DNA of 64,000 nucleotides. Origin: Teredinibacter turnerae. GTDB lineage: Bacteria; Pseudomonadota; Gammaproteobacteria; Pseudomonadales; Cellvibrionaceae. The notes beneath the pieces were generated by a model. The model ran no database searches and was not told the origin of the DNA. It saw only the letters and a list, made by a program, of their open reading frames with translations. How positions within the stretch are numbered: the first letter of the stretch is position 1; the number at the start of each line of letters is the position of its first letter. The position numbers were made by a program, and so were the translations under genes. The stretch is from assembly GCF_037935975.1 (NCBI RefSeq), contig NZ_CP149817.1, positions 3,410,001 to 3,474,000 of the forward strand, written 5' to 3'. This document shows, one piece after another, positions 44,218-52,903 of the stretch.

Positions 44218-44305
44218 TGGCGGTGGGCCAGGGATTCGAACCCCGGGAGCTGTTACACTCAACGGTTTTCAAGACCGCCGCTTTCGACCACTCAGCCAGC
44301 CCACC
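44218..44305 (-). tRNA. tRNA-Ser(UGA)
   Basis: On the minus strand the gene starts GGTGGGCTGGCTGAGTGGTC at 44305 and ends GCCCACCG-CCA at 44218; the 3' CCA is encoded. The acceptor arms GGTGGGC and GCCCACC pair fully. The anticodon loop CTTGAAA gives UGA. A long variable arm (about TTGAGTGTAACAG) and the T-arm CCGGGGTTCGAATCCCTGG mark it as a class II serine tRNA. Confidence 0.97.
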
Positions 44306-49294: not shown

Positions 49295-50680
49295 ATGGTA
49301 AAGGCCAATTTGCGCAGTTTGGCAGCAACGATACTCTTGTTTGTCGCTATCATCTTCATAGAAGTGTTCGGTATTCCCGGCACAGACCTGACGCACCCGC
49401 AACAAATAACCGCCGCCATATTAGTTGTCGCTGCCGTGCTCTGGGTTAGCGAGTGGGTCTCGCTGTTTGTGGTCAGTTTCTTGATTCTCGCATTAGAAAT
49501 TGTCTGGCTCTTGCCAGCGCTCAACGGCGTTGGCGTGGATATAAAAAGTAACGTATTTTTCGGACCGTTCTTTTCCAATATTATTCTGCTTTTTCTGGGT
49601 GGATTCGTACTGTCCAGCTTGATGCAAAAATACGAATTGGATATCCGCTTTGCCCAGGCGATCCTCAAGCGCACTAAAGGAATGCCGTCACTGACTCTAC
49701 TCGGTATCATTCTCGCGTGTTCATTCCTCTCCATGTGGATAAGCAACACAGCGACTACTGCGATGATGCTGACCATGGTTTTCCCGCTCATCAAAAAAAT
49801 TCCAGACGAAAATCCCTTTCGTAAAGCGTTGGTGCTCTGCATACCATTCGCGTGCAACCTCGGTGGGATTGGCACGCCTATCGGAACGCCGCCCAACGCC
49901 ATCGCACTAACCTATCTCACCAAAGCCGGATTCGAAATCAGCTTTGCCAAGTGGATGATATTAACCCTGCCGTTCCTGATTATTTTCCTGCTTTTCCTCT
50001 GGCAGCTGCTGCTGCGTCTGTTCCCCGCCGGAAACCTGCGGCTGGACGTACCAGAGCGACACACAGCGGATTTTGGCCCCAAACACTGGGCCGCATTGAG
50101 CGTATTTGTGGTAACTGCACTGGGATGGTTTTTTGCGAGTAAACTCGGCCTTGCAACCGGTACCGTCGGTTTATTTCCAGTGATTGTTTGCTTTTGGTTC
50201 GGCCTGCTGTCGACTAAAGACTTCCGCGATCTTCCATGGGATGTACTCTACATGGTTGCCGGTGGACTCGCCTTGGGAGTCGCACTAAATGTCACCGGTC
50301 TTGGTGAGGTACTCATTAACTCGCTACCCATTTCCGGGTCACCCTGGGTACTGCTGATCATCACCGCAGCGGTTGCCGGTGGTATGTCCACGGTGATGAG
50401 CAATACCGCCACTGCCGGCCTGGTCATTCCACTGGTGATGAACCTGCCGTTCGACAATAACTACATATTATCGTTGGTCGTCGCGCTCGCCTTAATGTGC
50501 TCTATGGCTATGGCGCTACCTGTCAGCACACCGCCAAATGCCATCGCTTTCAGCTCGCGAGCGATTAGCAGTCGCGATATGATGATCACCGGTGGTTTAA
50601 TAACTGTTCTAGGTTATCTGTGCATTGCCTTCCTTGGCCCCATGTACTGGCGATTTGTACTTTCATTCATGGGTGTATAA
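49295..50680 (+). CDS. DASS-family (SLC13) sodium:anion symporter
   Basis: A 461-residue inner-membrane carrier with about 11-12 hydrophobic segments. The two inverted-repeat Ser-Asn-Thr motifs of the family are present, SNTATTAMM (about residues 150-158) and SNTATAGLV (about 369-377), followed by GTPIGTPPNAIAL and PVSTPPNAIAFSS. The family imports dicarboxylates, citrate or sulfate with Na+. The paired SNT motifs favour di- or tricarboxylates, but the substrate is not determined. A strong AAGGAG precedes the ATG. Confidence 0.92.
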   Translation: MVKANLRSLAATILLFVAIIFIEVFGIPGTDLTHPQQITAAILVVAAVLWVSEWVSLFVVSFLILALEIVWLLPALNGVGVDIKSNVFFGPFFSNIILLFLGGFVLSSLMQKYELDIRFAQAILKRTKGMPSLTLLGIILACSFLSMWISNTATTAMMLTMVFPLIKKIPDENPFRKALVLCIPFACNLGGIGTPIGTPPNAIALTYLTKAGFEISFAKWMILTLPFLIIFLLFLWQLLLRLFPAGNLRLDVPERHTADFGPKHWAALSVFVVTALGWFFASKLGLATGTVGLFPVIVCFWFGLLSTKDFRDLPWDVLYMVAGGLALGVALNVTGLGEVLINSLPISGSPWVLLIITAAVAGGMSTVMSNTATAGLVIPLVMNLPFDNNYILSLVVALALMCSMAMALPVSTPPNAIAFSSRAISSRDMMITGGLITVLGYLCIAFLGPMYWRFVLSFMGV

Positions 50681-50704: not shown

Positions 50705-51025
50705 ATGGAAATCAAAGTTCAAAAATGTCAAAGCTGCAGTTCTCGCAGTCTGCGTAATATACTGGTACGCGATCACGGGCAAAAAGTATTCGTTCAATGT
50801 CGTGACTGCGGCAACCTGGTTGCGCGCTATGAGTTATCTAAAGGTGGCTACTTTCACGTCGGCAAGGGCTTCGAAAGTTTTCTTCGCTCGGTAGAACGGG
50901 ACGGAGAGTTCGAAAGCGCGCGCGACTTGAACGCTAAATACGAAGCGACAGATTCGGCAGTCAGCAATGAATTCGCGGCGCTGTCGAAAAAGCTCACTGA
51001 AATATTTGGTGAAACTCTGCCATAA
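50705..51025 (+). CDS. Zinc-ribbon protein of unknown function
   Basis: A 106-residue cytoplasmic protein with four cysteines in two C-x-x-C pairs, KCQSCSSRSLR and QCRDCGNLVARYE, spaced like a zinc ribbon. The C-terminal half is charged and probably helical (NEFAALSKKLTEIFGE). GGAGG lies just upstream of its ATG, 24 bp after the DASS gene, so the two are probably co-transcribed. I do not recognise the family. The ribbon could serve nucleic-acid or protein binding. Confidence 0.78.
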   Translation: MEIKVQKCQSCSSRSLRNILVRDHGQKVFVQCRDCGNLVARYELSKGGYFHVGKGFESFLRSVERDGEFESARDLNAKYEATDSAVSNEFAALSKKLTEIFGETLP

Positions 51026-51034
51026 ACTGATCGC

Positions 51035-51245
51035 AAAAAGGAGCGCGTCTTAACGATTAACCCGGCGATTAAATAGATGAGCCTATCTATTTAATCGCGT
51101 GCCCTTGAAGTACTGGCGTAAATGTGTGAATTTTCTAATACTTCAAGGGCTTACATTGCCCTTCGGGCAATGGCGGTGCATCCCTGCACCGCCTATTAAC
51201 TTCGCAATTTTCTTTGCCAAGTTAATAGAAGCCGCGCTCCTTTTT
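51035..51245. repeat. Closed multi-hairpin element (six-helix junction)
   Basis: A 13-bp outer helix, AAAAAGGAGCGCG (51035-51047) with CGCGCTCCTTTTT (51233-51245), encloses five consecutive hairpins. These are a 14-bp stem at 51065-51078/51085-51098, 12 bp at 51101-51112/51139-51150, and 8 bp at 51154-51161/51165-51172. Then come 9 bp at 51172-51180/51185-51193 (sharing base 51172) and 9+4 bp at 51194-51207/51214-51227. All arms pair perfectly except one C-C mismatch in the last. There is no open frame. Two further dyads, TTGGC-atac-GCCAA (51261-51274) and the palindrome TTAGCCGGCTAA (51282-51293), follow. It could be a structured RNA, an unusual terminator or a miniature mobile element. It begins 9 bp after the zinc-ribbon stop codon. 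Confidence 0.85.
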
Positions 51246-51379
51246 AATACTTTCGTCGGCTTGGCATACGCCAATGCGGAATTAGCCGGCTAAATCCTCC
51301 AAACCTGTTTCAACACAGATTGTCTTTCAACCGCCTGCTAAGCTAATATCTAGCTATATTGCGTGCAGAGTGGCCGACC

Positions 51380-52903
51380 ATGATCTCAGAATTCTCCGGC
51401 AACATCGCCAATGCTTACGACCTCACCGTTATCGGTGGTGGCATCAATGGTGTCGCTGTGGCATCAGAGGCAGCCAGCCGCGGGCTGTCCACCCTGTTGG
51501 TACATAGTCGCGATCTGGCCTCTGGCGCCTCGGCTCCACCCGTCAGCCTGGCAGCGCACAATCTGCAAGCACTCTCTGCTCTCGACCTGTTTCAGCTCAC
51601 CAACCAGTTGGACGAAATTAAACACCTCCAATACGTTGCACCGCACCTGATTGACCTGCTGCCGGTACAGCAACTCAATGGCGAAATGGCTAACCACGAG
51701 CGCACCCGGCTGGTACAACGTGTTTTTAAACACTTGCGCAATCGAAGTTTATCTCCGAGCGACAGCTCGTCCAGTGCGGGCTACAACATCGTTGCTCGAA
51801 TTAAACCCGCTCGCATGGTCGTCAGCCTCGCGCTGGAAGCCCAACAACTTGGAGCGAACATAGTCACCTACCATCGTGTTCAGAGCGCAGAACGGTACGA
51901 AAAACATTGGGGGCTGACTTTAGAGAGCTGCCAAAGCCCCTTGCGTACTTATCATGTAAACAGCCGCTGGATCGTCAATTGCAGTGGGTGGTTGGCCAAC
52001 GATGTATTAGAACAAGTCCTGAAGGTACAAACCCGAGCGAAAGCAACCGCCGAATTTCGCACACAATTCTTTTTTCGCAACCCATTAAAACACGACCCCA
52101 CGACTCGAAAAATTTTTAAAATTCGTGGCAACAGACTTGATTTTCATGTGTACCACGCCACCGACGATATTCTTGCTTTTGGCCCGCTGAAGTGCGACCA
52201 GGAGGGCTACGCGGAGTGTATCGATATACAACAGGAATTTCTCGAAACCTGGAATAACACCCCAGAGTTAACGCAGTACGCGCGCAAACTCACGGGGGAA
52301 GATATCCTCTACAAACGCCGGGGCAATATCGCGCTTATTCATGACCCCTGTGGCAATGACGACACGCCGCTTACCGTTCCACTGCTGGATATCGACAACC
52401 CCGGCGGTAAAGCTGTTTTGATGAATATTTTTGGTGCCGAGCCCATTCTCGCGCAAAAAACCGCGCGTCAGGCATTGAACGCACTCCAGGTATTCACCGG
52501 AAAAAAAGCCCACAGCGAGCGCAGAAAGCACCCCTTGCCAGGTGGCGATATTCCAACATCAAGCATGGCGGATTATTTACTACAACTTACTACAACGCAC
52601 CCCCTGCTCCCCGCAAAATTGGTACACCGTCTCGGGCGTAACTACGGGCAACTCGCGAACCACATTCTGCAAGGCGTCACCTCCGAGCAAGATCTGGGAG
52701 TCCATTTCGGCAATATGCTCTATGAGCGGGAGGTGGAGTATCTGGTAGACAATGAATGGGCGCGCTGCGCCGAAGACATACTGGCCCGGCGCACTTTTAT
52801 TTATTTGAGTTCGGATAAAAAAATACTGCAGCGGCTCTCTGACTGGTTTGCCGAGCGCAAGAATAAAAAACAACGTTCAGCGACGATTAGCGCGGAAGAG
52901 TAA
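51380..52903 (+). CDS. GlpD-like FAD-dependent oxidoreductase, divergent paralog
   Basis: A 507-residue flavoprotein whose overall plan is that of glycerol-3-phosphate dehydrogenase GlpD. The N-terminal FAD-binding loop is LTVIGGGINGVAVASEAASRG. The C-terminal cap domain shows LVHRLGRNYGQLANHIL and EVEYLVDNEWARCAEDILARRTF. The segment after the FAD loop reads DLASGASAPPVSLAAHNLQAL, where GlpD has the conserved S-S-R/S-T-K-L-x-H-G-G-x-R-Y-L, so substrate-contact residues appear to be lost. Function may therefore differ. The start is the ATG at 51380; no strong ribosome-binding site is seen. Confidence 0.8.
   Translation: MISEFSGNIANAYDLTVIGGGINGVAVASEAASRGLSTLLVHSRDLASGASAPPVSLAAHNLQALSALDLFQLTNQLDEIKHLQYVAPHLIDLLPVQQLNGEMANHERTRLVQRVFKHLRNRSLSPSDSSSSAGYNIVARIKPARMVVSLALEAQQLGANIVTYHRVQSAERYEKHWGLTLESCQSPLRTYHVNSRWIVNCSGWLANDVLEQVLKVQTRAKATAEFRTQFFFRNPLKHDPTTRKIFKIRGNRLDFHVYHATDDILAFGPLKCDQEGYAECIDIQQEFLETWNNTPELTQYARKLTGEDILYKRRGNIALIHDPCGNDDTPLTVPLLDIDNPGGKAVLMNIFGAEPILAQKTARQALNALQVFTGKKAHSERRKHPLPGGDIPTSSMADYLLQLTTTHPLLPAKLVHRLGRNYGQLANHILQGVTSEQDLGVHFGNMLYEREVEYLVDNEWARCAEDILARRTFIYLSSDKKILQRLSDWFAERKNKKQRSATISAEE

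Follow-up and report, generated by a model that had tools for sequence, protein, structure and literature searches.

The folded structure at positions 51035-51245 of the window (the whole 64,000-nucleotide stretch of the Teredinibacter turnerae genome analysed here) is far above chance, but it is composed of two things: a palindrome of the host and, inside it, a repeat. We hold with high confidence that this inner 175-bp element (51054-51228) is a non-autonomous MITE, the ends of which come from an insertion sequence of the IS630 family (Tc1/mariner-like). It is filed as an IS630-derived MITE because the transposase, the TA duplication and the ends agree. The hairpins of the element are conserved by double-sided changes across genera, while their sequence turns over.

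A host palindrome and an inner repeat make up the folded structure

The RNA fold of 51035-51245 has an energy of −107.7 kcal/mol, versus a mean of −50.8 (standard deviation 4.6) for shuffled sequences (z −12.3; none of the 200 shuffles was as good). Refolding as DNA gave a z of −11.3, and the minus strand of the inner part a z of −11.2. The 13-bp outer helix and the five hairpins described in the initial annotation were confirmed, both in their coordinates and in their pairing (Table 1). As H5 is itself a palindrome, its left arm repeats the 5' terminal half-site in direct orientation. The upstream zinc-ribbon-like gene has no match in Pfam or NCBIfam and is present in all eight genomes of the genus that were searched; the top NCBIfam matches of the downstream GlpD-like gene fall below their cut-offs.

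Table 1. Features of the 51035-51245 region and of its neighbourhood (positions in the window)
Feature	Positions	Strand	Remarks
DASS-family anion symporter gene	49295..50680	+	TIGR00785 above cut-off
Zinc-ribbon-like gene	50705..51025	+	upstream; 106 aa; named from the initial annotation and CxxC pairs
Left arm of the flanking terminator-like palindrome	51035..51047	+	AAAAAGGAGCGCG; outside the repeat; similar arm at the G003 ortholog
MITE copy	51054..51228	+	about 175 bp, counted with the TA-side bases at either end and the flanking C/G; the transposon itself spans about 51057-51225; among the 33 copies aligned
5' terminal half-site	51054..51066	+	CGATTAACCCGGC; family form CTATTAACCYGGC
5' copy of the TA target duplication, presumably degenerated to GA	51055..51056		CGATTAACC here versus CTATTAACC in the family; G003 ortholog CTATTAACC
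Hairpin H1	51065..51098	+	minus-strand loop often CsrB-like CAGGA(C/U/A)G in the wider family; GGA lost in the window copy
Hairpin H2	51101..51150	+	longest hairpin; conserved inner motif
Hairpin H3	51154..51172	+	short loop
Hairpin H4	51173..51192	+	minus-strand loop CAGGGAUG, containing the ANGGAN pattern
Hairpin H5	51193..51228	+	terminal palindrome CTATTAACTTCGCAA...TTGCCAAGTTAATAG
3' copy of the TA target duplication, putative, from other copies	51226..51227		L002 and L003 empty sites show a TA duplication
Right arm of the flanking palindrome	51233..51245	+	CGCGCTCCTTTTT; ends in five T
GlpD-like FAD oxidoreductase gene	51380..52903	+	downstream; PF01266 7.2e-19, PF16901 7.9e-12; start set at ATG, the listed frame opening with TTG at 51359

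We read the 13-bp outer palindrome (51035-51047/51233-51245) as terminator-like and host-derived. A terminator pattern scan lists none at this place, because the loop now comprises about 185 bases. Among 34 copies tested with offsets of up to 10 bases, a flanking stem of at least 6 bp occurs in one, the window copy with its 13 bp (null about 1), and a stem of at least 8 bp was observed once versus 0.06 expected. Apart from the match to itself, no match in the own genome spans the arms of the outer helix; three matches reach 1, 2 and 7 bases into one arm. As the window copy is alone in having such a stem, the outer helix is not part of the repeat, and the six-helix junction is a feature of this insertion site. 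The closed six-helix unit of the initial annotation thus dissolves into a host palindrome and a repeat, and the idea that every copy sits in a terminator stem was rejected on the same count.

At the orthologous place, the congener G003 carries AAAACGGGCGCGTCTTAAC TATTAACCCGGCATAAACTGCCGCCGGGTTAATA GTTAAGACGCGCTCCTTTT, a short palindrome, similar to the H5 of a second subfamily (see below), that occupies the centre of the same palindrome. The ancestral site was thus most likely a palindromic terminator tipped with CTAG, and the window locus has no true empty site, since the element that G003 holds there is another, short one. In six other congeners, the intergenic sequences of which differ, visual inspection showed no insert at this locus. 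We propose that a palindromic terminator-like hairpin, located between the zinc-ribbon gene and the GlpD-like gene, received the window copy at its centre, which would have generated the apparent six-helix junction.

The repeat is dispersed in the own genome and occurs in other bacteria

A search of the own genome (G000, a single 5.35-Mb contig) with 51020-51260 returned at least 48 matches (E ≤ 0.001), most of which begin near 51050-51056 and finish near 51225-51228. They correspond to complete or partial copies at at least 41 places, including that of the window (pieces of one copy were merged, short arm-to-arm matches were omitted, and the best 40 of 91 candidates were scored). The other copies are 74 to 96% identical to the window copy, and the 34 copies measured are 168-181 bp long, with no coding capacity for a transposase. 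According to simple ORF calls on 30 copies, 12 lie between convergent genes, 15 between co-directional genes and two between divergent genes, the last one being undetermined. An enrichment at 3' ends, between convergent genes, is described for the pneumococcal SPRITE repeat in the accessible part of PMC3049150.

Using BLAST, the repeat was matched in eight of 58 genomes, the own genome included, two of which (G013 and G018) have only a short piece; the matches fall in congeners as well as in other genera. R1, a covariance model of 33 near copies, matched in 38 of 120 family genomes (E ≤ 0.001, the weakest at 6.8e-5); the window copy, which itself contributed to the model, scores 213.6 bits. 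Named records with a full-length match are, among others, a Cellvibrionales MAG (1.1e-45), Tenderia (9.7e-35) and Gilvimarinus (4.7e-24), and the weak matches in the same table correspond to the palindrome only, because H5 alone scores up to about 28 bits. Solo H5-like palindromes occur in the own genome (L068 and L072) and in other genomes, and L085, also in the own genome, resembles an internally deleted copy. A scan of named genomes yielded at least 119 stretches with TATTAACYYSGC-N4-16-GCCRRGTTAATA, the matches listed being from Thiodiazotropha, Sedimenticola, Lysobacterales, Methylococcaceae, Microbulbifer, Gilvimarinus, Tenderia, Olavius symbionts and others, with one Rhodobacteraceae MAG among them. 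A second half-site (≤ 2 mismatches) stands 55-300 bases upstream in 18 of the 119 listed palindromes versus three for the reversed motif; two of these 18 are neighbouring solo palindromes (L101), and some resemble chance. A phage- or plasmid-borne origin was rejected, neither the phage nor the plasmid collection having a match to the repeat.

The consulted part of the T. turnerae genome paper (PMC2699552) mentions transposable elements and CRISPRs, and no such repeat. In the open-licence literature (subscription papers being outside this scope), no title or abstract opening among the matches listed dealt with this repeat family or with a CsrA-binding MITE.

Several other arrangements were observed. 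A second subfamily, present in the own genome at L059, L080 and L206 (truncated in the last case), has the same hairpin layout with different stem sequences. At L032 and L040 (G005 C1 1131919-1132267), two copies of the element are joined end to end in a head-to-tail orientation. Another MITE-like repeat, with the ends GGGCCTGTTAACACT/AGTGTTAACAGGCCC, is inserted in a copy of the element (L208 about 300-541; own genome about 3142199-3142440); it also occurs in the flanks of L019 and L030 and at L104, and the same end is found in a Thiodiazotropha contig. A small repeat-like stretch with ends like GAAGCTCTGATTAACC lies within an element copy at L210 about 375-505 (own genome). Finally, about 88 bases of L006 (about 1865-1953, own genome) match several places of G003, and perhaps represent another dispersed repeat family.

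The TA duplications and the ends point to an IS630-type transposition

First, empty sites could be read in G003 for two of the three copies queried, both with TA; the third (L006) gave one flank only. For L003, G003 has TTTCTAGTTTGG where the own genome has TTTCTA[TTAAC...GTTAA]TAGTTTGG, i.e., an exact TA duplication at CTAG. For L002, G003 has TATATTAGAGAAAG where the own genome has TATACTA[TTAAC..GTTAA]TAGTGAAAG, again with a TA duplication; in a longer reading (TCTATATTAGAGAAAG versus TTTATACTA[TTAAC...GTTAA]TAGTGAAAG), three substitutions surround the site, so that G003 reads TTAG. Of 34 copies, 28 have TA at their 5' end and 31 at their 3' end. IS630 prefers CTAG targets; the exact end of the element and any CTAG preference are uncertain here, because a C precedes the 5' end in 28 of 34 copies while the matching G is found in only 14. 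The search for target-site duplications, which the initial annotation had suggested, was positive at the L002 and L003 empty sites, but the 5' copy of the window element reads GA, which counts against the IS630 reading.

Second, the ends of the element are those of an intact insertion sequence. The family genome G010 contains a DDE_3 locus (L251) with a decayed frame between TATTAACCCGGTG and CACCGGGTTAATA, which are 1,017 bp apart. The part of this transposase before the first stop matched in eight of the 38 genomes searched, the source included, and its best foreign match is an intact 347-aa frame of the Olavius algarvensis Gamma 3 endosymbiont (G067, L255 1450-2554) bounded by TATTAACCCGGCAATAAAATAGTTGT and ACAACTAAATGATTGCCGGGTTAATA. 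This frame is an IS630-family transposase (NF033545, 3.5e-67, 227 bits versus a cut-off of 100; PF13358, 1.7e-38). Compared with the ends of the Olavius symbiont element, the 5' consensus of the repeat family agrees with the left one at 22 of 25 bases, and the window copy's 3' end with the right one at 12 of 15. By eye, L256 and L259 each carry a single end of this kind, roughly where it would be expected relative to the transposase match; no paired ends were seen around the more distant homologues of the G010 transposase, and in L257 a solo-type palindrome lies close to the C-terminal side.

A DDE_3 transposase was found in eight of the 38 genomes searched and not in the own genome, and G000, G003, G005 and G007 have no relative of the G010 transposase. 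This counts against the IS630 reading, although a relic MITE need not retain a transposase source in its genome, and mobilisation in trans is therefore a proposal here. An IS630 transposase would have bound the TTAACCYGG ends, excised the element and joined it to TA, and the source of this transposase would since have gone from the detectable content of the own genome. The search for parents in the own genome, from inverted end pairs around open frames (L206, L207 and L208), left no candidate: L208 has a 310-aa gene between degraded copies, and L206 a truncated copy of the second subfamily.

These data also bear on a REP/BIME origin, in which the repeat would be a palindrome of that type, mobilised through its single-stranded hairpins by a RAYT transposase (Y1, HUH). 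A small, mostly intergenic, palindromic, dispersed repeat that is biased to gene ends and has solo palindromes would fit such a system, but the TA duplications and the inverted ends in common with the IS630 element largely refute it, as these are not RAYT features; moreover, Y1_Tnp had no match in the own genome, whereas five of 14 control genomes matched. We regard a RAYT origin as highly improbable. An integron attC site was rejected by eye: its R''/R' core sites are GTTRRRY/RYYYAAC, which TATTAAC/GTTAATA do not resemble. A dispersed non-autonomous mobile element, one of the possibilities raised in the initial annotation, is the one that agrees with the about 40 copies, the TA duplication at two empty sites and the ends shared with an intact IS630-family element.

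The hairpins are maintained by compensatory changes across genera

In a plain MAFFT alignment of the 33 near copies, double-sided changes occur in 25 of the 64 pairs (66 cells versus 19.9 in shuffled alignments), the slid controls giving 4-15 pairs. Fitting 32 copies, each from a different locus, to the model (A2) gave such changes in 57 of 64 pairs (374 cells versus 96.6 shuffled; slid controls, 23-36 pairs and 43-74 cells), and 90.4% of the cells are paired although the stem columns average only 50-66% identity. Because a fitted alignment leans to its structure, the analysis was repeated with plain MAFFT on 21 diverse copies (A4), after omission of 11 of the 32 A2 sequences that had no clear 3' end or were much shorter. 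Double-sided changes were again found, in 43 of 64 pairs (159 cells versus 57.8 shuffled; slid controls, 14-32 pairs and 25-84 cells). None of 500 shuffles was as high on four measures, and six of 500 were on the fifth; H1 is partly misaligned in this alignment (56.5% paired). RNAalifold recovered H2, H3 and H5 unaided from A4, and not H1 and H4; it gave 14 pairs on alignment A1, which is uniform and gapped in H1.

According to the initial annotation, a lack of both copies and compensatory changes would have reduced the structure to an accidental cluster of dyads; the opposite was observed, i.e., many copies and strong compensatory changes. That five dyads without a common history came together by accident is already refuted by the fold z of −12, the spread of the model matches over the family genomes and the covariation.

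The H1-H4 body also occurs with degenerate or no transposon ends. All of the 19 copies from the genus Microbulbifer keep this body, and when TATTAACCC and GGTTAATA were looked for (≤ 2 mismatches) both were present in two copies, one in eight and neither in nine. In G161, the body directly follows tRNA genes (L303 and L305). Three Microbulbifer-group genomes carry it within one common flanking sequence that has tandem repeats (L310, with two model matches; L311 and L313 by eye). In G141, this flank is the gap between a trpF-like and a trpB-like gene (L317 3109-3430; gene names by eye), where tandem H1-H4 bodies lie with their minus strand co-directional with the genes. The persistence of the body in Microbulbifer points to a module able to outlive transposon ends. 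As the H1-H4 body covaries across genera and has degenerate or no ends in Microbulbifer, we propose that its fold is conserved for its own sake, as a structured nucleic acid.

The hairpin loops resemble CsrA-binding motifs on the minus strand

Loop bases were counted in 39 cluster representatives (75% identity), after removal of two rows of alignment A3 (one cut match and one on the wrong strand). On the plus strand, the H4 loop reads A (29/38), T (37/37), C (35/38), C (33/38), N (13 C, 9 T, 7 A and 5 G), T (31/38) and G (34/38), which corresponds to C-A-N-GGA-U on the minus strand. The minus-strand H1 loop reads C (20/38), A (22/23, with 16 rows gapped), G (35/36), G (35/37) and A (28/37), followed by a variable position (14 C, 12 U, 8 A and 2 G) and by G (26/37). 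As for whole motifs on the minus strand of the cluster representatives, ANGGAN is present in H4 in 24 of 39, an H1 motif in 25 of 39 (CAGGA in 18 and CANGGA in seven), and both in 15 of 39. An automatic loop finder detected TCC in 61 of 81 H4 loops and in 68 of 98 H1 loops (23 and 6 rows, respectively, being undefined). The consulted part of PMC7652899 lists the SELEX consensus of CsrA as RUACARGGAUGU, the hairpin loop of RsmE as ANGGAN and the CsrB repeat as CAGGA(U/A/C)G. The apparent agreement of the loops with these motifs, the variable positions included, is the most striking single fact of the analysis, though one noticed post hoc and without a proper null.

The own genome has two CsrA genes (2482357-2482512 and 2112716-2112871). 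The following lines of evidence count against a CsrA reading: the window copy itself has no GGA in H1, the Teredinibacter-type H1 consensus is UAGGAUC, not CAGGA, the neighbouring genes favour neither strand of the copies (see below), and no promoter was found next to the window copy. On the minus strand, the Rfam model of RsmW scored 34.5, 25.0 and 24.1 bits (three of 20 loci), all below its gathering threshold of 52, and that of RsmV scored 13.4 bits at one locus versus a threshold of 100. A known Rfam RNA was rejected, since the 64-kb window has only a tRNA (44221-44305), and none of 11 relative loci exceeds a gathering threshold; the low-threshold non-Rsm matches (ncr1175, Polynucleobacter-1, HPnc0260, tRNA-like, miRNA, viral and others) were judged to be chance or tRNA overlap.

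The strand from which the body might act was approached through wobble pairs and neighbouring genes. Over 103 distinct but non-independent rows, there are 255 AC and 176 GT (36 versus 18 columns, sign p 0.02), a weak skew towards the minus strand that vanishes in the A3 cluster representatives (AC 70, GT 63); alignment A1 gives AC 88 and GT 45 with a loose rule, and AC 62 and GT 44 (p 0.098) with a stricter one. On simple ORF calls, the copies with co-directional neighbours show no orientation bias, the neighbours reading the plus strand in nine copies and the minus strand in six in the own genome, and the plus strand in six and the minus strand in seven of 13 Microbulbifer/Gilvimarinus-type copies. 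A role of the body as a folded RNA is possible, likelier from the opposite (minus) strand.

The initial annotation had considered a structured small RNA processed from the 3' end of the symporter/zinc-ribbon transcript, which would be a plus-strand RNA unrelated to transposition. The element does start 28 bp past a co-directional stop codon, and the H1-H4 body does persist elsewhere with degenerate or no transposon ends. Against this origin, the copies are dispersed in both orientations, the six other congeners show by eye no insert at the locus, and there is no plus-strand wobble excess. As stated, the proposal lacks support, with no orientation bias and no sigma-70-like promoter found at 50950-51400, and we consider it very unlikely.

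The main alternative to a CsrA role is that the hairpins act at the DNA level only, as lagging-strand hairpins or cruciforms for transposition, replication or protein binding, the loops being landing points for DNA-binding proteins. To this alternative, with which the similar wobble counts of both strands in the cluster representatives and the lack of orientation bias to the neighbours are consistent, we give somewhat less than an even chance; the minus-strand skew over the 103 non-independent rows and the fit of the loop degeneracy to a known RNA-protein motif argue against it. The CsrA reading, the most specific role that we propose for the body but a tentative and rather unlikely one, is that the H1-H4 body may be a mobile CsrA/RsmA-binding RNA module: an IS630-type MITE would have captured, or become, a Csr-type sponge and spread through gammaproteobacterial genomes. 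If so, the number of dispersed minus-strand CsrA decoys per genome would range between one and dozens, and some would since have been domesticated without ends, as in the trpF-trpB gap of Microbulbifer.

Relation to known repeats and significance

The element has several relatives by description. Like the RUP of Streptococcus pneumoniae (107 bp, proposed to be an IS630-Spn1-derived MITE), it is non-autonomous, shorter than 200 bp and TA-targeted, with IS630-like ends and transcripts predicted to fold (as far as the accessible parts of PMC2229807 and PMC3049150 describe RUP). Unlike RUP, its body is a chain of separate hairpins that covary across genera and are also found without ends. The Correia/NEMIS elements of Neisseria are likewise TA-flanked MITEs with terminal repeats and folded transcripts, but they have different ends; according to the review consulted, most such repeats fold by pairing of their 5' and 3' ends, with no multi-hairpin core described in the source sections consulted. 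The CIR repeats of Caulobacter/Brucella share with the element hairpin arms (two, with a linker), a conservation across genera and a loop-exposed motif (GANTC), according to the accessible part of PMC2229807. The same text, the comparison being one of descriptions, presents CIR as devoid of terminal repeats and of unclear mobility, whereas the element has four to five hairpins and IS630 ends. With the IS630-family insertion sequences (NF033545, DDE_3), the element has in common the ends TATTAACCCGGCAAT and the TA duplication; unlike them, it has no transposase, and only the tips match. Finally, the minus-strand H4 loop CANGGAUG and the H1 loop CAGGA(C/U/A)G would fit the published CsrA motifs, as do CsrB/RsmW-type RNAs (Rfam clan CL00106). 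Unlike these RNAs, the element has at most two such loops, all its Rsm scores are below gathering, and it is dispersed and mobile.

Bacterial MITEs are usually described as hairpins of their inverted ends; here, a multi-hairpin body is kept by compensatory change across genera. As this body is conserved across genera, also without ends, it provides a natural case for testing whether functional RNA modules are spread by mobile elements. Should its loops bind CsrA, the copy number of the element would matter for the level of a global regulator, and this transposon family would be a direct route for the recruitment of new members to a post-transcriptional regulon.
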